A DNA stretch of 32,304 bases from Dehalococcoidia bacterium (GTDB lineage: Bacteria > Chloroflexota > Dehalococcoidia > Tepidiformales > Tepidiformaceae). The notes under the pieces were generated by a model. That model saw only the letters and a program-made list of their open reading frames with translations, was not told the DNA's origin and searched no databases. Position 1 is the first letter of the stretch. Each line of letters starts with the position of its first letter. Position numbers and translations under genes: made by a program. This document shows, piece after piece, positions 2,969-13,035 of this stretch. Where the stretch lies: NCBI GenBank assembly GCA_022827945.1, contig JAJEIT010000082.1:1-32304 (forward strand). Reading direction: 5' to 3'.

Positions 2969-4825
2969 GTGGGCATAGAGGCGCTTACGCACGACGACGA
3001 CGGCAACCTTGTCGTGCCGGAGACCCCCGAGGAGTGGGACCGGTGGGTTTCCGCGTCGAGGACGCGGAACCACGTGCTGGACAACCCCCTGCTCGACTGG
3101 CTCGATCGGTGGGGCGAGGAGCACGGCTACGAACGCGACCCCGTCGAGGAGGACACGGACTTCCTGACCTTCCTGTTCGGGAAGGGGAATGCATTCGAGG
3201 CGGCGGTCGTGGAACACCTGAGCGAGCTCGCCGAGGTGCGGATGGTGGAACCGGAGGGTGCGGAGCGAGAGGAGCTGCGCGAGCTGGCCGTGGCCGAGGC
3301 AACGTTCGCGGCGATGGCCGATGGAGCGGAGATCATCTGCCAGGCGTGGATGCGCAACCCCCAATCGCGCACCTACGGCGCCCCCGACCTGCTGGTCCGC
3401 AGTGACGTGCTCGCCAGGCTGTTCCCGGGGTCGATTTCCGACGAGGCGGCGGCCGTGCCCGCGCCCGACCTCGACATCGGTGACCGGCACTATCGCGTGA
3501 TCGACGTCAAGTTCTCGACGCTGCACCTGGCGGCGGGCGGAGAGCTGGGCAATTCGGGCTCGGCGCCGGCCTACAAGGCGCAGGTCTACCTCTACAACCG
3601 CGCCCTCGGACGGCTGCAGGGGTACCTGCCGCCGGAGGCGTTCGTGCTGGGGCGCGGGTGGGAACAGACACGGCGGGGCGAGACCTCACGGGGCGCGAGC
3701 TGCATGGACCGGATCGCGCCCGTCGCCAACGACTACGCCTCGTACGGGCGGGGACGGCTCTCCGACCAGGTCGACGAGGCGGTGGCATGGGTGCGACGGG
3801 TGCGGGCGGAGGGCGGCAACTGGCGCGCCCTCCCGGAGCCGTCGGTCGAGGAACTGCGCCCGAACGGGAAGGCCGATTCCGGGGAGTGGTCGAGCGCGGT
3901 CAAGGAGATCCTGGAGGAGGGCGAGGACCTGACCCGTCTCTGGTGGGTCGGTGTCGCGAAGCGCCGCGATGCGAACCGGCAGGGGCTGACGCGCTGGACC
4001 GACCCGCGCGTCACGCCGAAGGCCGTCGGCGTCGAGGGGCGCACGACGATGCCGAACCTGCAGGCCCTCCTGGACGTGAACCGCGAGCCCGGGCCCGACG
4101 TCCGGCCGGCTCGCATCGCCGAGGCGAGGGAGGATTGGATCGAGGAGGCGCCCGTCGAGTTCTACGTCGACTTCGAGACGGTCGGCGACCTCGACGACGA
4201 CTTCTCGGCGATCCCCGAGCGGGGCGGGCAGCCGCTCATCTTCATGGTCGGCTGCGGGCACCTGGAGGACGGGGACTGGCGGTTCGAGTGCTTCATTGCC
4301 GACCGGCTCGACGAGCGGTCGGAGGCGACGGTCATCGACGACTGGTTCGAGCACATGACCTCGGTTCGCGACCGGCTCGCACCGGGGGCGCACCCGAAGG
4401 TCATCCACTGGTCACCGCACGAGACAATCACACTGGAGACGGCGTTCGACGCGGCCGTGAAGCGTCACCAGGCGACGGGCTGGCGGCACACCAGGAAGCA
4501 GGAGCCGTGGCCCCACCCGAACTGGTTCGACTTCCTGAACAAGGTGATGAAGCGGGAGCCGGTGGTCGTGCGGGGGGCGCACGGGTTCGGGCTGAAGGCG
4601 GTCACGAACGCGATGCACGACCTCGGGTTGGTCGAGACCCGCTGGGATGAGGGCCCCGCCGACGGCCTCGGCGCGATGGTGGGCGCGTGGACGTGCAACC
4701 GGCGGGCGGTCGAGGACGGGTGCAGCATGCGCGACCTCGCGCTGATGAAGGGCATCGAGCGTTACAACGAGGTCGACTGCAAGGCGATGATGGAGCTCGT
4801 CCACTACCTGCGCCAGCACCACTAG
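2969..4825 (+). CDS. Two-domain nuclease: PD-(D/E)XK (RecB/TM0106-like) plus RNase H-like DEDD exonuclease
   Basis: Protein of 618 residues. The N-terminal half matches RecB-like nucleases of the TM0106 type: helix GNAFEAAVVEHL (about 73-84), GAPD (137-140), DVK (179-181) and the QVYLYN helix (Gln 205), all core residues of the PD-(D/E)XK fold. The C-terminal half is a predicted RNase H-like 3'-5' exonuclease: VDFET (Asp 401, Glu 403), a central HWSPHE segment, and the final YNEVDC helix with Asp 603. Such proteins are thought to process or degrade nucleic acid; substrate unknown. It starts 44 bases after the DUF4325 gene on the same strand. The GTG start lacks a Shine-Dalgarno sequence. Confidence 0.8.
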   Translation: MGIEALTHDDDGNLVVPETPEEWDRWVSASRTRNHVLDNPLLDWLDRWGEEHGYERDPVEEDTDFLTFLFGKGNAFEAAVVEHLSELAEVRMVEPEGAEREELRELAVAEATFAAMADGAEIICQAWMRNPQSRTYGAPDLLVRSDVLARLFPGSISDEAAAVPAPDLDIGDRHYRVIDVKFSTLHLAAGGELGNSGSAPAYKAQVYLYNRALGRLQGYLPPEAFVLGRGWEQTRRGETSRGASCMDRIAPVANDYASYGRGRLSDQVDEAVAWVRRVRAEGGNWRALPEPSVEELRPNGKADSGEWSSAVKEILEEGEDLTRLWWVGVAKRRDANRQGLTRWTDPRVTPKAVGVEGRTTMPNLQALLDVNREPGPDVRPARIAEAREDWIEEAPVEFYVDFETVGDLDDDFSAIPERGGQPLIFMVGCGHLEDGDWRFECFIADRLDERSEATVIDDWFEHMTSVRDRLAPGAHPKVIHWSPHETITLETAFDAAVKRHQATGWRHTRKQEPWPHPNWFDFLNKVMKREPVVVRGAHGFGLKAVTNAMHDLGLVETRWDEGPADGLGAMVGAWTCNRRAVEDGCSMRDLALMKGIERYNEVDCKAMMELVHYLRQHH

Positions 4826-4835
4826 AGGGCGGCGG

Positions 4836-5243
4836 CTAGCCCCCTTCGAAAGGATTCACCAGCTCCACGCCAAGCCGGTCGAAGTCCCGCGCGTTCCGCG
4901 TCGCGACCGTCAGGGAGTGAGCGACGGCGACCGCCGCGATCAGTGCGTCTTCCATGAGGGAATCCGGCTGCCGGTGCTTGAGACGGGCCCACTCCCGGAA
5001 GGCGGCCGCGTCGGCAGGAAGCACGCCGAAGGAGTTCAGCACCTGCCCGAGCCAGACCTCGAGCGCATTCGCCTTCGTCGCATCATGCTCGCGGGTGATC
5101 TCGATGCCCGCCTGTATCTCCCCGATGGTCACGGCGGAGACGAAGAGCTGATCCGCGGGAACCCGCCGAATCCACTCGAGGACCGCAGGATGGGGGCGCG
5201 GACGCCGCAACTCCGAGACGACGTTGGTATCGAGGAGGTACAC
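4836..5243 (-). CDS. VapC/FitB-type PIN-domain ribonuclease toxin
   Basis: PIN-domain protein of 135 residues. Metal-binding acids are D5 (YLLDTNVVSEL), E42 (TIGEIQAG) and D99 (MEDALIAAVA), and the ARDFDRLG motif is near the C-terminus. The N-terminus LLDTNVVSE is typical of FitB/VapC toxins of plasmid and chromosomal modules. GTG at 5243 follows the antitoxin stop by 3 bases, so the two are translated together. The gene is convergent with the nuclease gene, 10 bases away. Confidence 0.88.
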   Translation of the reverse strand: MYLLDTNVVSELRRPRPHPAVLEWIRRVPADQLFVSAVTIGEIQAGIEITREHDATKANALEVWLGQVLNSFGVLPADAAAFREWARLKHRQPDSLMEDALIAAVAVAHSLTVATRNARDFDRLGVELVNPFEGG

Positions 5244-5246
5244 CGG

Positions 5247-5507
5247 CTACTTGACGGCCGGAGGGGGCCGGTGGCGATGGGTGGGGCGCGGCGGCGTAAG
5301 TTCCTCCGTCCGGGCATCGGGACTGAGGAGCAGGTCCTTTAGCGTCGGCCTGTTCATCTCTTGCAGCTTCCGCCACTGGTCGATCGAGACGAGAACAGCC
5401 GCTTCAACGCCACGCCTGGTAACGATCTGGGGCCCATCACTCAGGCTGGCATCGAGCAGCTCGCTGAACTTCGCCTTCGCATCCTGAACCTGCCACGCCT
5501 TGCCCAC
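5247..5507 (-). CDS. Phd/YefM-type antitoxin
   Basis: Protein of 86 residues with the classic Phd/YefM N-terminus (WQVQDAKAKFSELLDASLSDGPQIVTRRG), followed by VLVSIDQWRKL and a disordered Pro-rich toxin-binding tail. It should neutralise the PIN toxin encoded 3 bases downstream and repress the operon. The start is GTG 5507; CAGGG upstream is a modest ribosome-binding site. Two direct repeats just upstream (5520-5542) are the likely operator. Confidence 0.88.
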   Translation of the reverse strand: MGKAWQVQDAKAKFSELLDASLSDGPQIVTRRGVEAAVLVSIDQWRKLQEMNRPTLKDLLLSPDARTEELTPPRPTHRHRPPPAVK

Positions 5508-5542: not shown

Positions 5543-5707
5543 ACACGCCCTCAGGCCGGCCCGCGTACCCTGCGCCGATCAGCGAGTCGGTGAAGCTGAG
5601 GGAACGATCCGGCGGGTTGGCGCATATCTCTTTGCACGATGGTACTGGCGCATCCCGATGCGCGACGCGAACACTACCCCATCCGGCTGGTGGAAGGTGA
5701 GGGACGC

Positions 5708-6265
5708 ATGACCGACGACGAAGCCGTCCTGCGGTGTCAGGACGGCGACCGTGAAGCCTTCCGCCACCTGGTGGAGCAGTACAAGAACCCGCTCTACGGC
5801 ACCGCCTACCTGATGACGGGCAACGCCGCGCAGGCCGAGGAGCATGTGCAGGAGGCGTTCCTGCTGGCCTGGCGCGGCATCAAGTCGTTCCAGCGCGGGC
5901 GCCCGGTGAAGCCCTGGCTGATGCGCATCCTGGTGAACGCGGTGCTGGCGCAGCAGCGCAAGCGTTCCCTGACAACCGTGCCGCTGGAGGAAACGCTGCC
6001 CGTGGGCGCGCCCTCCAGCGGCGCCGACTCGATCGAGGCGAGCGAAGACCGCGAAGCCGTGCGCCAAGCCCTCGCCCAGCTAACCCCCGAACACCGCCAG
6101 GTCGTGGTGCTGCGCTACTTCGCCGACCTGACGGTTCCACAAGTCGCCCGTTCCGCCGGGGTGCGGGAGGGCACGGTCAAGTCGCGGCTCCATCGAGCGC
6201 TCCGCCAGATGCGGGAGCTCCTGGAGCAGTCGGGTGTGATGGAGGTGGCCGGCAATGGCGCGTAA
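5708..6265 (+). CDS. ECF-family RNA polymerase sigma factor
   Basis: Protein of 185 residues with sigma region 2 (EAFRHLVEQYKNPLYGTAYL...AEEHVQEAFLLAW) and region 4 (LTPEHRQVVVLRYFADLTVPQVARSAGVREGTVKSRLHRAL), joined by a short linker. There is no region 1 or 3, so it is an ECF sigma. ATG 5708 is chosen over the in-frame ATG 5639 because GAAGGTGAGG lies just before it and region 2 then starts at the usual distance. Its last 11 bases overlap the next gene, whose product has an anti-sigma-like N-terminus. The sigma factor is probably held at the membrane until a signal arrives. Targets unknown. Confidence 0.92.
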   Translation: MTDDEAVLRCQDGDREAFRHLVEQYKNPLYGTAYLMTGNAAQAEEHVQEAFLLAWRGIKSFQRGRPVKPWLMRILVNAVLAQQRKRSLTTVPLEETLPVGAPSSGADSIEASEDREAVRQALAQLTPEHRQVVVLRYFADLTVPQVARSAGVREGTVKSRLHRALRQMRELLEQSGVMEVAGNGA

Positions 6266-8537
6266 CGACATGCCAGATCAGGAGATGGAACGAAAGCTCC
6301 GCGAGCACTTCGCGGAAGAAGCCCCGGACCTGCAGGCTCCGGACGACCTCTGGGACCGGCTGGAGAGCCGCCTGGGAAAACAGGATCCGCCGCGCTTCGC
6401 CCTCTTGCGGGGTGGAGCCAGCGCCATCGGCTCAATGCCATGGATTCCGGCGGCGGCGGCGGCGGTACTGGTTGTGGGCCTGGGCGTGGGCGCCTGGGCC
6501 CTGGCCGGCGGGACCGGTGATAGCGGCGGCGACGAGATGGCCGCCGCCCCGGCCGCCACACAGGCTGCGGCGGCCGCTGAGGGAGAACCGGAGGCTGCTG
6601 CAGCGGCCACCGTCGCCCCGACGGAGGCCGTTGCCTATGAAGCGGCCGCCGAGGCAGAGCCGCCGGCAGCGGCTCCCGCGGCCACCGAGGCCGCCGCCAC
6701 AGCGGCCGCGGCCGCCCGCGCAGTCGAGCGGGAACCAGCTCCGGAAGCGACCCCCGAGGCCGTCTCGACTCCCGAGTCAACACCGGAACCGGCGCAGGCA
6801 CGCGAGGCGCAGGCCACCCAGGTCGCGGAGAGCGAGCCACCCGCCGACGACAGCAGCGAACCCGCCGAGGCCTCCGACGGAGCCGAGGAAGCCGCGGAAG
6901 AGCCTGCCGAGCCCTCCGACGTCGCCATGGATGACGACCTGTCCGACGAGGACATGGCTGAGGACATGGCCGACGAGGCCATGGACGACGCCATGGGCGA
7001 TTACGACGACATGGCGGACGGCGACATGGAGGCGGAAGCCGAAGACTCCGCGTCCTGGTCCGCGCGCGAAGCGGAGGAGGAGGAAGCGGCGCAACCGCGG
7101 CGTCCTTCCGATACGACGTTCGAGGACTACGAGCGCACGGCCTTCGTCTCGACCGACCTTGACGCTGTCTCGACCTTCAGCCTCGACACCGACCGCACCT
7201 CTTACTTCCTCGCCCTCACCTGGGTCCGCAACGGCTACCCCGTCGACCCCGACTCCGTGCGGGCGGAAGAGTGGATCAACGCCTTCGACTACGGGTACGC
7301 CCGGCCGGCCGGCGACGACCGTTTCGCCATCGTCAGCGACCTCGTACGGCACCCGATCGACGGGGACTGGCACCTCGCCCGCATCGCCATGCAGGCGCCC
7401 GACCTGCGCGACGACCGGCCGCTCAACGTGACGCTCGTGCTGGATGCCTCCGGCTCGATGTCGTGGGGCGACCGCGTCGCCATCGCGCGGGAGGCGGCGG
7501 AGACCATCCGCCAGAGCCTCGGCGCCGACGACCGAATCGCCGTCGTCCACTTCACCACCGACGTGCTCGACCGCTACACGGTCGCGCACAGCTCGCCCGA
7601 CGACGAGGACGTGGTCTGGTCGATCGGCAGGCTGGCGGCGCACGACAGCACGAACGTGCAGGCCGGCCTCAACCTCGGCGTGCAGCTGGCCGACCAGGCC
7701 CGGCAAGAGCGCCCGGACGCCTACAACTACATCATCCTGATGTCCGACGGCGTGGCGAACGTGGACGCGACCGACCCGTTCGCCATCCTCGAGGGGGCGC
7801 CCGACTCGGACAGCACGAACCCGCTGCGGCTCATCACCATCGGCGTGGGCATCGACAACTACAACGACGTGCTGCTGGAGCAGCTCGCCCAGCACGGGAA
7901 CGGCTGGTACCGCTACCTCGACGACACCGTCCAGGCGCGCGAGACGTTCAGCCGCGAGAACTGGCTGGCCCTCTCCACGCCCTTCGCCGACCAGGCCCGC
8001 GCCCAGGTGACCTGGGACCCGGCCGTGGTGAAGGAGTGGCGCATCGTCGGCTACGAGAACCGGGTCACGCCCGACCACACGTTCACGCAGAACCGCCGGG
8101 AGTTCGCCGAGCTTCCCGCCGGAACGGCCACCACCGTCTTCTACGAGCTCGTGCTGCACGAGGGCGTCAGCCTCTCGGCCGCGCTCGGGAGCGTGGAGGT
8201 GCGCTGGGTCGACCCGGCCACGGGCGACTCGGTCAGCCAGACCGCCGCGATCAGCGGCCAAACCGACGCCGGCTTCGACGACGCCGACCGCTTCCTGCGG
8301 CTGGGCGCAATCGTGGGGCTCGCGGCCGACCGCTACAGCAGCCTTTCGCCGCAGGTCGAGAACGCGGAGGTCGACTACGCCGGCATCCACGCCGACCTCT
8401 CGGCCCTGCAAAGCCGCTTCCGATCGCTTGAGGGAAGGCTCGGCTCCTCCCAGGCCTACCTGGACTTCAGCGCCCTTTTGGACGAGCTGACGGCCGCGGC
8501 CGCCGAGCTGGCGCCTTCCTCGGGCTACAGCCAGTGA
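6255..8537 (+). CDS. Membrane anti-sigma-like protein fused to an external VWA domain (YfbK-like)
   Basis: Protein of 760 residues. Residues 1-55 are cytoplasmic and charged, the position of an anti-sigma domain. Residues 63-86 form one membrane helix (PWIPAAAAAVLVVGLGVGAW). Residues 87-285 are an Ala/Glu/Pro-rich, then Asp/Met-rich linker. From about 290 follows a YfbK-type region (VSTFSLDTDRTSYF), then a VWA domain with the MIDAS motif DASGSMS (397-403) and a C-terminal DUF3520-like part ending SSGYSQ. The 11-base overlap with the ECF sigma gene supports control of that sigma factor. The ligand of the VWA domain is unknown. No zinc-binding ZAS motif (HxxxCxxC) is visible in the first 55 residues, so the anti-sigma role is inferred from position. 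Confidence 0.8.
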   Translation: MARNDMPDQEMERKLREHFAEEAPDLQAPDDLWDRLESRLGKQDPPRFALLRGGASAIGSMPWIPAAAAAVLVVGLGVGAWALAGGTGDSGGDEMAAAPAATQAAAAAEGEPEAAAAATVAPTEAVAYEAAAEAEPPAAAPAATEAAATAAAAARAVEREPAPEATPEAVSTPESTPEPAQAREAQATQVAESEPPADDSSEPAEASDGAEEAAEEPAEPSDVAMDDDLSDEDMAEDMADEAMDDAMGDYDDMADGDMEAEAEDSASWSAREAEEEEAAQPRRPSDTTFEDYERTAFVSTDLDAVSTFSLDTDRTSYFLALTWVRNGYPVDPDSVRAEEWINAFDYGYARPAGDDRFAIVSDLVRHPIDGDWHLARIAMQAPDLRDDRPLNVTLVLDASGSMSWGDRVAIAREAAETIRQSLGADDRIAVVHFTTDVLDRYTVAHSSPDDEDVVWSIGRLAAHDSTNVQAGLNLGVQLADQARQERPDAYNYIILMSDGVANVDATDPFAILEGAPDSDSTNPLRLITIGVGIDNYNDVLLEQLAQHGNGWYRYLDDTVQARETFSRENWLALSTPFADQARAQVTWDPAVVKEWRIVGYENRVTPDHTFTQNRREFAELPAGTATTVFYELVLHEGVSLSAALGSVEVRWVDPATGDSVSQTAAISGQTDAGFDDADRFLRLGAIVGLAADRYSSLSPQVENAEVDYAGIHADLSALQSRFRSLEGRLGSSQAYLDFSALLDELTAAAAELAPSSGYSQ

Positions 8538-8555
8538 CCTGGCTCGCCATCCGAC

Positions 8556-8575
8556 GGGGGCTCCGGCGCGCCCCC
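8556..8575. repeat. Short hairpin between the two VWA genes
   Basis: GGGGGC and GCCCCC pair perfectly (6 bp) around an 8-base loop, 18 bases after the first VWA gene. There is no T tract. It could protect or attenuate the message before the second gene. Confidence 0.35.
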
Positions 8576-8599
8576 ACGCACAGAGCAAAGGAGGCTCAG

Positions 8600-10405
8600 A
8601 TGCGATTCCCCGCACGGATGTACCGGATCCTCGCCGCGAGCGCCGCCGTGGCGCTCCTCACGCTCGCGGTCGCCGCCTGCGGCGACATCGACGGCGACGA
8701 CGACGACAGCGCCGCGCCGGCGGCGACGCAGGCGCCCAGCCGCGCCCAGCCGGCCCAGGAGGCCGCCGCCACCCAGGCGGCTGCCGAGGCGTACGAGCAC
8801 GCAGCGGCCGCCACGGAGGCAGCAGCCGCGTACGAGGCCGAAGCCGCGCAGGAGGAAGCAGCCGCAGACAGCGGTTCCTGCCCGAACTGTTGGTCCGCCG
8901 GCCGGCAGGGGTCCACGACCCAGGCAGCCGCCTCCGTCAGCGAACCCGCACCCCAGCGGCCCGCGCCCGGGGCGACGACCTTCCAGAACTACGGGCGCAC
9001 GCCGTACGTGAAGACCGCGACGGACGCCGTCTCCACCTTCAGCCTCGATACGGATCGCACGTCGTACTTCCTCGCCCTCGCCTGGGCGCAGAGCGGGTAC
9101 GCCGTCGAGCCCGACTCGGTGCGGGCGGAGGAGTGGGTGAACGCCTTCTCCTACGACTACGACGCGCCCCGGGACGACCGCAGCTTCGCCATCACCAGCG
9201 ACGTCGTGCAGCACCCGCTCGGCGGGGGACGCCACCTCGTCCGCCTGGCCTTCCAGGCCCCGCACGTGCGCGACGACGTGCCCCTGAACGTGACGCTCGT
9301 GCTGGACGCCTCCGGCTCGATGGCCGACGGCAACCGCGTCGCCATCGCGCGGGAGGCGGCGGAGGCCATCCGTAACAGCCTCGGCTCCGACGACCGCATC
9401 GCCGTCGTCCACTTCACCACCGAGGTGATCGACTGGTACACCGTCGAGCACAGCCGGCCCGGAGACGAGGACGTGGCCTGGTCGATCGGGCAGCTCGCCC
9501 CGCACAACTCGACGAACGTGCAGGCCGGGCTCGACCTCGGTGTGCGGCTCGCCGACCAGGCCCGGCGGGAGCGCCCGGGCGCCTACAACTACATCATCCT
9601 GATGTCGGACGGCGTCGCGAACGTGGACGCGACCAACCCCTTCGCCATCCTCGACTCCTCGCCCGACACCGACCACCGCAACCCGCTGCGCCTGATCACC
9701 GTCGGCGTGGGCATCGAGAACTACAACGACTACCTGCTCGAGCAGCTCGCCCAGCACGGCAACGGCTGGTACCGCTACCTCGACACGACCGCGCAGGCGC
9801 GCGAGACCTTCAGCCGCGAGAACTGGCTGGCCCTCTCCACGCCCTTCGCCGACCAGGCCCGCGCGCAGGTGACCTGGGACCCGACGCTGGTCAGCTCCTG
9901 GCGCATCGTCGGCTACGAGAACCGGATCACGCCGGACCACACCTTCGAGCAGAACCGGCGCGAGTTCGCCGAGCTGCCCTCGGGCGCGGCCACGACGGCG
10001 TTCTACGAGGTCGTCCTGCACGACGAGACGCGCCGCGGCCTGGCCACGCTGGGCGAGGTGGAGGTGCGCTGGGTGGACCCGCGCTCGGGCGACACCTACA
10101 GCCAGGCGGCGCGCCTGGAGGGCCGCACGGACGCCCCCTTCGACGCAGGCGACCGGCACCTCCGCTTCGGCGCCATCGTGGCGCTCGCCTCCGACCGCTA
10201 CAGCGCCCTGTCGGTGCAGCTCGAGGGGGCCAAGATCGACATCGCCGGCCTGGGCGCCGACATGACGGCGCTGCGGGCGGAGCTGGACTCGCTCTACGAG
10301 CGGATGAGCACCCTGCAGTCCTACCACGACTTCAGCTTCCTGCTGGAGCGAATGACGGCCCGGGTCGAGGAGCTCGGGGGCGGGAGTTCAGGCTACAGCC
10401 AGTGA
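8600..10405 (+). CDS. VWA-domain lipoprotein (YfbK-like), paralogue of the preceding gene
   Basis: Protein of 601 residues. A signal peptide ends in the lipobox LAVAAC (Cys 27), so the protein should be a surface lipoprotein. A low-complexity Ala/Glu/Gln stretch follows (about 35-105). Then comes the same YfbK N-region (VSTFSLDTDRTSYF), a VWA domain with DASGSMA (from Asp 236), and a DUF3520-like end that also finishes SSGYSQ. ATG 8600 is chosen because AAAGGAGG lies 5 bases before it and a signal peptide follows directly; the in-frame ATG at 8534 would put 22 residues in front of the signal peptide. Large parts are almost identical to the upstream gene even in DNA, so it is a tandem duplicate that kept the domain but exchanged its anchor. 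Confidence 0.88.
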   Translation: MRFPARMYRILAASAAVALLTLAVAACGDIDGDDDDSAAPAATQAPSRAQPAQEAAATQAAAEAYEHAAAATEAAAAYEAEAAQEEAAADSGSCPNCWSAGRQGSTTQAAASVSEPAPQRPAPGATTFQNYGRTPYVKTATDAVSTFSLDTDRTSYFLALAWAQSGYAVEPDSVRAEEWVNAFSYDYDAPRDDRSFAITSDVVQHPLGGGRHLVRLAFQAPHVRDDVPLNVTLVLDASGSMADGNRVAIAREAAEAIRNSLGSDDRIAVVHFTTEVIDWYTVEHSRPGDEDVAWSIGQLAPHNSTNVQAGLDLGVRLADQARRERPGAYNYIILMSDGVANVDATNPFAILDSSPDTDHRNPLRLITVGVGIENYNDYLLEQLAQHGNGWYRYLDTTAQARETFSRENWLALSTPFADQARAQVTWDPTLVSSWRIVGYENRITPDHTFEQNRREFAELPSGAATTAFYEVVLHDETRRGLATLGEVEVRWVDPRSGDTYSQAARLEGRTDAPFDAGDRHLRFGAIVALASDRYSALSVQLEGAKIDIAGLGADMTALRAELDSLYERMSTLQSYHDFSFLLERMTARVEELGGGSSGYSQ

Positions 10406-10562: not shown

Positions 10563-10934
10563 TCAGGGCCAGGCCTCGATGACGACGCGCCCTCCCTCCT
10601 CTACTTCCAGATACACGCTGTGACTCTCGAGGAGGCGCATGCCGACCAACGGTGTGGTGTCGGCGGCGTCCGCCTCTACGTACCTCGTCCGCCCGTCCCA
10701 GAGCACGGCAATGCCGAAAGAAGAGAAGGTGACCTCACTGCCGTCCGCCAGGGTCGCCCGGCTGGTTCCCCGAAAGTCCAGTCCCAACTCCATCGCCAGC
10801 GCGGGCGCCACGGTCAGGAATCCCGTGAAACCGGTGTCGACTACCGCCTCGATCTGCCGTGCCTGTCCTGTCGGGCCGTACAGGGCAAGGGTCAGCACCG
10901 CCTCGTGGGCGGCGTTCACCATGCCTTCGATCAC
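10563..10934 (-). CDS. Retropepsin-like clan AA aspartic protease (DTGF type)
   Basis: Protein of 123 residues with a single aspartic protease motif VVDTGFTGFL (Asp 33), matching the bacterial and archaeal clan AA family with a DTGF signature. Retropepsins work as homodimers, each subunit giving one Asp. The strand FRGTSRATLADGSEV and the C-terminal LVGMRLLESHSVYLEVEEGG fit the fold's second half. Its GTG start (10934) overlaps the stop of the upstream 89-residue gene by GTGA, so the two are co-translated; ATG 10922 is an alternative start. Substrate unknown; the upstream protein is a candidate partner or target. Confidence 0.82.
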   Translation of the reverse strand: MIEGMVNAAHEAVLTLALYGPTGQARQIEAVVDTGFTGFLTVAPALAMELGLDFRGTSRATLADGSEVTFSSFGIAVLWDGRTRYVEADAADTTPLVGMRLLESHSVYLEVEEGGRVVIEAWP

Positions 10935-11353: not shown

Positions 11354-11638
11354 CTACGTTGCCAGCTGGGCCAGGTCGATTCCGATAAGCGCCAGGCTGA
11401 GGCCGGTCCACATCGTGACGATGATCCAGTAGAGCCAGGGATTCTCGTCCCGGTGGATCGGCTCCACGAGGAAGGTCACGCCGGTCGCGAACGCGGGCAC
11501 GGCCCAGTACAGGAACAGCAGGCCCCAGAGCCACTGGAAGTTGAACACGACCGCGGTCACCACGATCGCGAGGGCGCCCAGCGTAAGCCAGCGAACACGG
11601 CCCCCCACCGCACGTCCCGGCCGCCGATCGAAGCTCAT
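11354..11638 (-). CDS. Small integral membrane protein
   Basis: Protein of 94 residues with a basic N-terminus and three hydrophobic segments at about 16-32 (WLTLGALAIVVTAVVF), 36-55 (WLWGLLFLYWAVPAFATGV) and 68-88 (WLYWIIVTMWTGLSLALIG). Its ATG overlaps the Rieske oxygenase stop (ATGA), so it is the second gene of that operon. I do not recognise a family. It may be an unrelated small membrane protein or an accessory to the oxygenase. Confidence 0.65.
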   Translation of the reverse strand: MSFDRRPGRAVGGRVRWLTLGALAIVVTAVVFNFQWLWGLLFLYWAVPAFATGVTFLVEPIHRDENPWLYWIIVTMWTGLSLALIGIDLAQLAT

Positions 11639-12804
11639 GCTTCCCGCTCGACGTATCTCGCCGGAGGGTCCTGGCCGGCCAGCCGCCAGGCGAGATAGTG
11701 ATGGAAGTCCACGACCACCCGCTCGAGGGGCACCAGCCGCCCTCCCCGGGAGAGCCTCGCCGCCATGCCCGCCTGGGCTCGCTCGCAGATGGCGCGGTCC
11801 TCTTCCAGGAACGCCGTCGCATAGCCGTCGGAGATGGCCTGCGTCACCTGGTCGGGAGCGGAACGCATCAGCGTTCCCTGGGACACCCGCGTCGACGTCG
11901 GGCTCACGGGATGGGCGATGATCCAGTCCCAGGAGTCCTGGGTCACGACACCCACGAACGAGGGCGGGATCGAGACGAGGACGTAGTGGTCACCGCCCGT
12001 GCCGCCGCCGAAGAGGCTCCCGAGCAGCTTCCCCACCACCCCGCCGTCGTCCTGGACGATCTCGCCGCCGGTCAGCGTCCATGGCGCCGAGCCCGCGATG
12101 TAGTACGCCCCCCGCGTCGGCGTGACCTTCTCGAGTGTCTTCTCGTGCACCTTGAACAGGTGGTAGCTCTCCATGCCGTTCTCGACGACCAGCTTCCAGT
12201 TCGCCTCCCAGACCTCGGGAGCGGTCAGCGGTCCCGGCGCCGCGAAGGACCCCATGTCGAACTCGGCCAGGCGCGGGGCGATGCCGGCGAGCCGCTCGGC
12301 GAGCGGAGGGGCGTCGGGCGAGAGGCACACGAACACGACGCCCATCCAGACCTCGACGCGGAAGGCGGGCAGTCTGTGCTCCTCGCGGTCGATCGTGACC
12401 CCGTGCGTGTACGGCGCGCCCCGGAAGGTTCCGGAGTCGCTGTAGCTCCAGGCGTGGTACGGGCACGTGATCGTGCCCCCGTCGAGACAATCCACGCCCG
12501 GTTCGAGCATGAGCGTGCCCCGATGGCGGCACACGTTCGAGAGCGCGCGCAGCTGCCCGTCGGCGCCGCGAACCAGCGCCAGGGGCTCGCCGGCGATGTC
12601 GATGGCGAGGTAGTCGCCCGGTTCCGCCAGCGCCGCCTCCGCGCAGACCGCCGCCCAATCGCTGCGAAACACGCGGTCCAGCTCCAGCGCGAAGAGGCCT
12701 TCGTCGCGGTAGGCGGCAAACGGCAGGGCCTGCGCTTCCTCCGCCGGGGCCGCCGCTGCTGCAAGCAAGTCGAGCGCGGCTTCGGTGTCGTGCCTGCTGG
12801 CCAT
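11635..12804 (-). CDS. Rieske-type aromatic-ring-hydroxylating oxygenase, alpha subunit
   Basis: Protein of 389 residues. The N-terminal Rieske [2Fe-2S] domain has C92-x-H94 (VCRHRG) and C114-x2-H117 (CPYHAW). The C-terminal catalytic domain has the mononuclear iron motif NWKLVVENGMESYHLFKVH (His 215, His 220) and a later acidic ligand region (LEEDRAICERAQ). Members hydroxylate or demethylate aromatic and quaternary-amine compounds using electrons from a reductase; none is encoded nearby. ATG 12804 is used because the reading frame upstream runs through tRNA-Tyr and cannot be coding, and the Rieske homology begins soon after. Substrate unknown. Confidence 0.92.
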   Translation of the reverse strand: MASRHDTEAALDLLAAAAAPAEEAQALPFAAYRDEGLFALELDRVFRSDWAAVCAEAALAEPGDYLAIDIAGEPLALVRGADGQLRALSNVCRHRGTLMLEPGVDCLDGGTITCPYHAWSYSDSGTFRGAPYTHGVTIDREEHRLPAFRVEVWMGVVFVCLSPDAPPLAERLAGIAPRLAEFDMGSFAAPGPLTAPEVWEANWKLVVENGMESYHLFKVHEKTLEKVTPTRGAYYIAGSAPWTLTGGEIVQDDGGVVGKLLGSLFGGGTGGDHYVLVSIPPSFVGVVTQDSWDWIIAHPVSPTSTRVSQGTLMRSAPDQVTQAISDGYATAFLEEDRAICERAQAGMAARLSRGGRLVPLERVVVDFHHYLAWRLAGQDPPARYVEREA

Positions 12805-12870
12805 CGCTACCCACGTGCCCCTTCCTGGCTCAAGCGCGAGCCGCAGTGCGGTTCGCCGGGGGAAAGCTGG

Positions 12871-12954
12871 TGGAGGGGGCAGGATTCGAACCTGCGTACC
12901 GCTCTGCGGGGCAGATTTACAGTCTGCTGCCTTTAACCACTCGGCCACCCCTCC
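12871..12954 (-). tRNA. tRNA-Tyr (anticodon GTA)
   Basis: The acceptor stem is GGAGGGG/CCCCTCC. The anticodon stem GCAGA/TCTGC closes the loop CTGTAAA with anticodon GTA. The long variable arm expected of tRNA-Tyr is present, and the T-loop is GTTCGAATC. The discriminator is A (12871), and CCA is encoded at 12870-12868. Confidence 0.96.
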
Positions 12955-12962
12955 ACCTGGTG

Positions 12963-13035
12963 AGCCCAGGAGGGGACTCGAACCCCTAACCTGCTGATTA
13001 CAAATCAGCCGCGCTGCCAGTTGCGCCACCTGGGC
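12963..13035 (-). tRNA. tRNA-Thr (anticodon TGT)
   Basis: The acceptor stem is GCCCAGG/CCTGGGC. The anticodon stem GCTGA/TCAGC closes the loop TTTGTAA with anticodon TGT. The T-arm is GGGG-TTCGAGT-CCCC and the discriminator T (12963). CCA is not encoded. It lies 8 bases upstream of tRNA-Tyr, so the two are one transcript. Confidence 0.96.

Follow-up and report, generated by a model that had tools for sequence, protein, structure and literature searches.

The window analysed here, a stretch of 32,304 nucleotides whose contig is part of a 2.85-Mb genome, encodes an ECF sigma factor together with a membrane protein that exposes a YfbK-type VWA module on the outside. We conclude that this protein is probably the membrane-bound anti-sigma factor of the sigma factor encoded with it, with the VWA module as sensor and an autoregulated envelope regulon as output. 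The architecture of the protein, the coupling of the two genes, their strict co-occurrence, and the conserved promoter with its other sites are established at the level of sequence.

Such a function would offer the widespread YfbK-type VWA proteins a role that can be tested, and would add a kind of anti-sigma sensor that has no earlier description in the literature searched. With alpha-2-macroglobulin, LRR surface proteins, lipoproteins and methionine sulfoxide reductase as its predicted members, the regulon suggests a function in defence of the envelope or in remodelling of the surface. The hosts are uncultured Dehalococcoidia and related Chloroflexota, in which hardly any signalling system is known.

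Gene arrangement and protein architecture

The sigma gene (5708..6265, +) encodes a protein of 185 aa with the regions 2 and 4 and the small size of an ECF sigma factor. Pfam matches were found to Sigma70_r2 (E 2e-15) and Sigma70_r4 (E 1.5e-15), and an NCBIfam match to TIGR02937 sigma70-ECF (101 bits, for a cut-off of 42.9); PDB sequence relatives are SigL, SigW, SigK and CnrH. The gene of the membrane VWA protein (6255..8537, +; 760 aa) begins within the final 11 bases of the sigma gene (6255..6265, +), an overlap already reported in a first-pass annotation of the sequence. Most homologous pairs likewise overlap by 11 bp, and others by 4 bp. Since the arrangement is kept across species and families in the homologous loci compared, it is not due to chance. 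ECF genes are typically encoded together with a membrane anti-sigma factor and are autoregulated.

The same annotation had described a cytoplasmic N-terminus, one membrane helix, a linker of about 200 residues and an outer YfbK-type VWA domain, and Pfam, topology and structural model all agree with this description. The cytoplasmic N-terminal part (residues 1-49; 6255..6401, +) is a predicted sigma-binding two-helix domain in which M1, N4, L15 and W33 are invariant (26 homologues); the consensus of the alignment (26 sequences) reads M.N....D.EMER.LREHFA.EA..L.AP..LW..LE.RL. AlphaFold places helices at residues 6-22, 32-41 and 49-59, followed by the transmembrane helix, with low confidence (pLDDT 60 for the N-terminal domain). 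The single membrane helix (residues about 63-85; 6441..6509, +) is predicted to be oriented N-in, the charge distribution being positive-inside in 41/41 homologues, with a cytoplasmic part of about 60 residues. The predicted cytoplasmic N-terminal domain and single N-in helix are what a membrane anti-sigma factor has.

The N-terminal domain gave zero matches to the anti-sigma families of Pfam (zf-HC2, RskA_N, RseA_N, DUF4880 and others) up to E 10, and Foldseek returned no match with the low-confidence model. As no known anti-sigma domain was recognised, our functional claim is that the domain would work like an anti-sigma factor, not that it belongs to such a family. Its size and two-helix form are reminiscent of the short anti-sigma domains of class II, for instance that of CnrY.

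Beyond the helix, an Ala/Pro/Glu/Asp low-complexity linker (6510..7103, +; pLDDT <50 for residues 82-274) leads to the YfbK-type ectodomain (7104..8516, +), made up of a vWF_A region, a VWA domain with an intact MIDAS, and a beta-sandwich and helical part. Pfam locates vWF_A (PF12450) at residues 286-374, VWA at 391-554 and a partial YfbK_C (PF12034) at 577-636, all three above the gathering score, with YfbK_C covering model positions 6-65 of 184 only. Among 20 homologues there is no variation at the MIDAS residues D397, S399, S401, T466 and D498. E. coli YfbK (PF12450-VWA-PF12034) shares vWF_A, VWA and part of YfbK_C with this ectodomain; the present protein differs from the YfbK family in that YfbK_C is partial, the end is GYS[RQ], and a transmembrane helix with a cytoplasmic, sigma-linked N-terminus is found instead of the lipoprotein or free periplasmic form.

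The outer domain had initially been called 'adhesion-type', a label that the comparisons do not sustain. By sequence, its nearest solved relatives are inter-alpha-inhibitor heavy chains. Foldseek with the ectodomain model found ArnB/ArnA (Sec23/24 core), inter-alpha-inhibitor heavy chain 1 and the Catenulispora VWA protein 4fx5 (E 1e-15 to 1e-12), and VIA-align gave Z 12-13 over 307-350 residues but with an rmsd of 7-9, the VWA domain alone reaching a Z of up to 14. YfbK has been described as a module of VWA, beta-sandwich and helical parts (PMC12852372). Judged by the model, the ectodomain is such a module, and not specifically an adhesin. The ArnB and Sec23-Sec24 core, 4fx5 and inter-alpha-inhibitor heavy chain 1 have the same arrangement; this is a likeness of fold only, ArnB and Sec23/24 being cytoplasmic and without sigma link, unlike the membrane VWA protein.

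The protein ends in the conserved and probably flexible tail SSGYSQ (8517..8534, +; pLDDT <50 at residues 756-760). An end of the form GY[STN]x is present in 102/116 close homologues, and GYS[RQ] ends nearly all close VWA homologues, sigma-linked or not; the paralogues L028, L029, L030 and L033 have lost this tail and are likewise devoid of the lipobox Cys. A role of GYS[RQ] as a general sorting tag was rejected: in the window's genome it is found in-frame only in the two VWA proteins, and two further matches with a real stop terminate stretches unlike genes.

The second VWA protein is encoded by the next gene (8600..10405, +) and is, as had been recognised from the outset, a lipoprotein with the same VWA region. 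It is of the same family, 65% identical to the membrane VWA protein in the alignment, without the N-terminal sigma-linked domain and with the same tail SSGYSQ (10385-10402). Its start is ATG 8600 and not the mechanically assigned GTG 8534, and its lipobox is LAVAAC, with Cys27. The lipoprotein gene adjoins the pair mainly within this genus, in most of its members. A second VWA gene after the pair was also found in a few other genomes (L217, L222, L144), and none near other sigma-VWA loci, for example L068, L086 and L091. G004, a one-contig relative, has the sigma-VWA pair and a single vWF_A-domain protein genome-wide; as this genome is complete, the lipoprotein is not obligatory for the system. 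It may modulate it, but the suggestion that it is a built-in competitor or partner finds no support in this distribution.

Co-occurrence with the sigma gene and the candidate regulon

Four sources supplied the homologues: 40 relatives, some 290 genomes of the class, some 300 of the phylum, and 84,980 species genomes that were scanned. The presence of the N-terminal domain was then compared with that of an adjoining sigma gene of this family for the 112 Chloroflexota homologues with enough upstream sequence (one of them, L059, with a frameshift in the linker, was labelled by hand). Both were present in 39 cases and neither in 73, with 0 mixed cases; in a first count, the two had coincided in 33 cases and both been missing in 77, and the three exceptions were explained by contig ends (two) and a frameshift (one). 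Wherever the N-terminal domain occurs, the gene is immediately preceded by the sigma gene, in most cases with the 11-bp overlap seen here, and the pairing reaches other Chloroflexota families (f94, f108 and f141). Homologues without the domain are mostly lipoproteins or exported proteins with no such sigma gene near. The extended form is therefore consistently co-encoded with the sigma gene (39/39 compared to 0/73), as a membrane anti-sigma factor is.

On the tree, the state changes between sigma-linked and free at least 4-5 times on supported branches, a rough number given the quick method and the long branches. These changes indicate that one and the same ectodomain has alternated repeatedly between two forms, one extended at the N-terminus and linked to the sigma gene, the other free. 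Independent contrasts on supported branches agreed in 4/4 cases (sign test, P = 0.125, significance being out of reach with four pairs).

One could suppose that the membrane VWA protein is a downstream effector or adhesin merely sharing the operon, that its N-terminus anchors or targets it, and that control of the sigma factor is exerted by other means, such as its transcription. VWA lipoproteins of the same family are widespread without sigma genes, which implies that the ectodomain has a function of its own, and no known anti-sigma family was recognised in the N-terminus. However, the N-terminal domain follows the sigma gene through every state change, and an effector could do without a conserved two-helix domain in the cytoplasm in which L15 and W33 never vary, so that we hold this explanation to be unlikely. 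Of the original proposal that an external adhesion-type domain controls the sigma factor, we thus retain the membrane VWA protein as the probable regulator of the adjoining sigma factor, on the strength of the co-occurrence counts, and abandon 'adhesion-type'. The regular occurrence of the VWA pair without a sigma gene, which had been named as evidence against the proposal, is true of the lipoprotein form only, and not of the membrane form.

A predicted ECF-type autoregulatory promoter, GGGAAC-N15-CGCATA, lies upstream of the sigma gene (5600..5626, +). It emerged from a phylogenetic footprint of 13 loci, in which GGGAAC, a 15-bp spacer and CGC[AG]TA are invariant. As GGAAC-N15-[CG]GC[AG]TA, it is recognisable in 38/40 distinct sigma-VWA pairs across families, at -70 to -133, which by motif corresponds to an autoregulated promoter with a GGAAC-type -35. 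No strict match was found elsewhere in the 804 kb of loci, on both strands. The window's genome has only four sigma70_r2 genes, one of housekeeping length and three of ECF type, and neither of the remaining ECF-type loci has the motif, which can therefore plausibly be assigned to the sigma factor studied here.

The strict motif had 19 matches in nine genomes of the genus, compared to 0 for the reversed control. Seven of the 19 are sigma operons, and the other 12 all lie 0 to 108 bp upstream of a gene for a secreted protein or lipoprotein (by visual inspection of signal peptides and lipoboxes). These sites precede a YbaY/YscW-type lipoprotein (PF09619) with msrA downstream in G000, G002 and G005 (msrA by eye in G000 and G005), a small lipoprotein next to ResA/ResB-like genes, DUF4349 plus PKD lipoproteins, LRR surface proteins, and a bacterial alpha-2-macroglobulin in G005. 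A relaxed motif, whose search was noisier (18 matches compared to 3 in the control), is kept before an orthologous protein in G000, G003 and G006; this protein is an alpha-2-macroglobulin by Pfam in G003 and is interrupted by the contig end in G000. The relaxed matches L240, L248 and L253 were unconvincing and were left out of the count. Judged by motif and position, the secreted-protein and lipoprotein genes appear to be members of the regulon.

The alpha-2-macroglobulin-type proteins behind a sigma-type promoter (L257, 1-4077, -; L122, 1632-5500, +; L256, 1508-2794, +) have repeated N-terminal 'VDVRVWQ...IHISARP' modules. Such modules precede LRR proteins too, at other motif sites.

Proposed mechanism and related systems

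In the mechanism that we propose, the cytoplasmic two-helix domain of about 50 residues would bind the sigma factor and thereby keep it off RNA polymerase, while one helix would span the membrane and the long linker would hold the YfbK-type VWA module outside as a sensor. Gain or loss of a ligand by this module, metal-dependent through the MIDAS, would set the sigma factor free, most likely via regulated proteolysis of the anti-sigma factor. Site-2-type proteases are nearly universal, and those of the Peptidase_M50 family are encoded in the window's genome, so that regulated proteolysis is possible as the release step. The freed sigma factor would transcribe its own operon from GGAAC-N15-CGC[AG]TA, and also a small envelope regulon of alpha-2-macroglobulin-type and LRR surface proteins, the YbaY/YscW-type lipoprotein with msrA, and DUF4349 lipoproteins. 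In this scheme we infer sigma binding, the sign of control, the ligand or signal, the release step and the role of the lipoprotein.

Either sign of control would agree with the present data, and the N-terminal domain might act as a positive co-factor, delivering active sigma factor after cleavage, and not only as an inhibitor. FecR-type regulators work with a short N-terminal sigma-binding part, one transmembrane helix and an outer sensor, and the membrane VWA protein shares this layout. However, DUF4880, the N-terminal family of FecR, was not among the matches, and no TonB-dependent receptor was found among the scanned proteins beside the pair; we therefore give such a co-factor only a slim chance.

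As an anti-sigma factor, the membrane VWA protein would resemble the class I and II membrane anti-sigma factors of the RpoE-RseA, SigW-RsiW and CnrH-CnrY systems, with which it shares co-encoded overlapping genes, an autoregulated promoter of GGAAC type, short cytoplasmic N-terminal helices, one transmembrane helix and an outer domain. It differs from them in an N-terminal sequence unrelated to the Pfam anti-sigma families and in a YfbK-type VWA sensor placed behind a linker of about 200 residues.

The VWA force transducers, which are coupled to the proton motive force, also combine a transmembrane helix, a disordered linker and a YfbK-like VWA, and their first family has an SHLS motif in the transmembrane helix and adjacent motor genes (PMC12204202). 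That the membrane VWA protein is a transducer of this type with an incidental sigma neighbour is hardly credible and was rejected, the gross architecture being the same but the SHLS pattern occurring in 0/41 homologues and the transmembrane His in only one, with the sigma and VWA genes adjoining and neither motor genes nor a tolQ/tolR-like gene among the scanned neighbours.

The first-pass annotation had implied that the sigma-VWA pair was unique, but other such pairs exist. A transmembrane VWA protein like that of Rhizobium bangladeshense had matches in 113 Rhizobium plasmid records, and an overlapping 'RNA polymerase sigma factor' gene stands beside it in nearly all annotated records listed. 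In the record examined (J2J98_RS28845, J2J98_RS28850), an ECF sigma gene overlaps the VWA gene by 4 bp, and the VWA protein likewise has a cytoplasmic N-terminus, a transmembrane helix, a linker and a full YfbK module; the annotation of the two says no more than 'sigma factor' and 'VWA domain-containing protein'. This pair differs from ours in an N-terminus that does not match the profile, a distant sigma factor (E 4e-20) and a full YfbK_C. In another Chloroflexota family, L208 combines a different sigma factor with a VWA protein whose N-terminus, of the kind DARLTAYALGQLDG, has no match to the present N-terminal profile. As the N-termini of Rhizobium and of L208 both fall outside the profile, the coupling of a sigma factor to a VWA protein probably arose more than once.

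The open literature searched contained no paper on such a pair; the main ECF reclassification, which may describe one, lay outside the search. The terms 'Willebrand' and 'VWA' are both absent from PMC6180224 and PMC8103513. As far as this literature goes, a YfbK-like VWA as an anti-sigma sensor would be new within known ECF/anti-sigma systems.

A wider reading, which we consider doubtful when taken as a whole, would join these observations. YfbK-type VWA modules would have been recruited repeatedly as anti-sigma sensors: in the present lineage, in Rhizobium and, joined to a third kind of N-terminus, in L208. The GYS[RQ] tail, common to the membrane protein and the lipoprotein, would serve as a trigger handle, bound for example by a PDZ-type protease. 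Both VWA proteins would together form a pair in the manner of Sec23/Sec24 or ArnA/ArnB, which would detect attacks on the envelope and turn on a defence by alpha-2-macroglobulin.

Other features of the window

A PIN toxin and Phd/YefM antitoxin module (4836-5507, -) lies between an ORF of 618 aa (2969-4825, +) and the sigma promoter. In four relatives (L022, L023, L024 and L027), the sigma promoter is instead immediately preceded by the end of the ortholog of this ORF, so that the module looks like an insertion. The ORF itself has no Pfam match and is RecB/TM0106-nuclease-like by eye only.

A small ORF (10563-10934, -) has a weak match, below the cut-off, to retropepsin-like aspartyl proteases. 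Two tRNA genes (12871-12954 and 12963-13035, -) lie within the upstream part of the mechanically called ORF 11635-13029, which encodes a Rieske/ring-hydroxylating oxygenase; the true start of that gene must therefore be further downstream.
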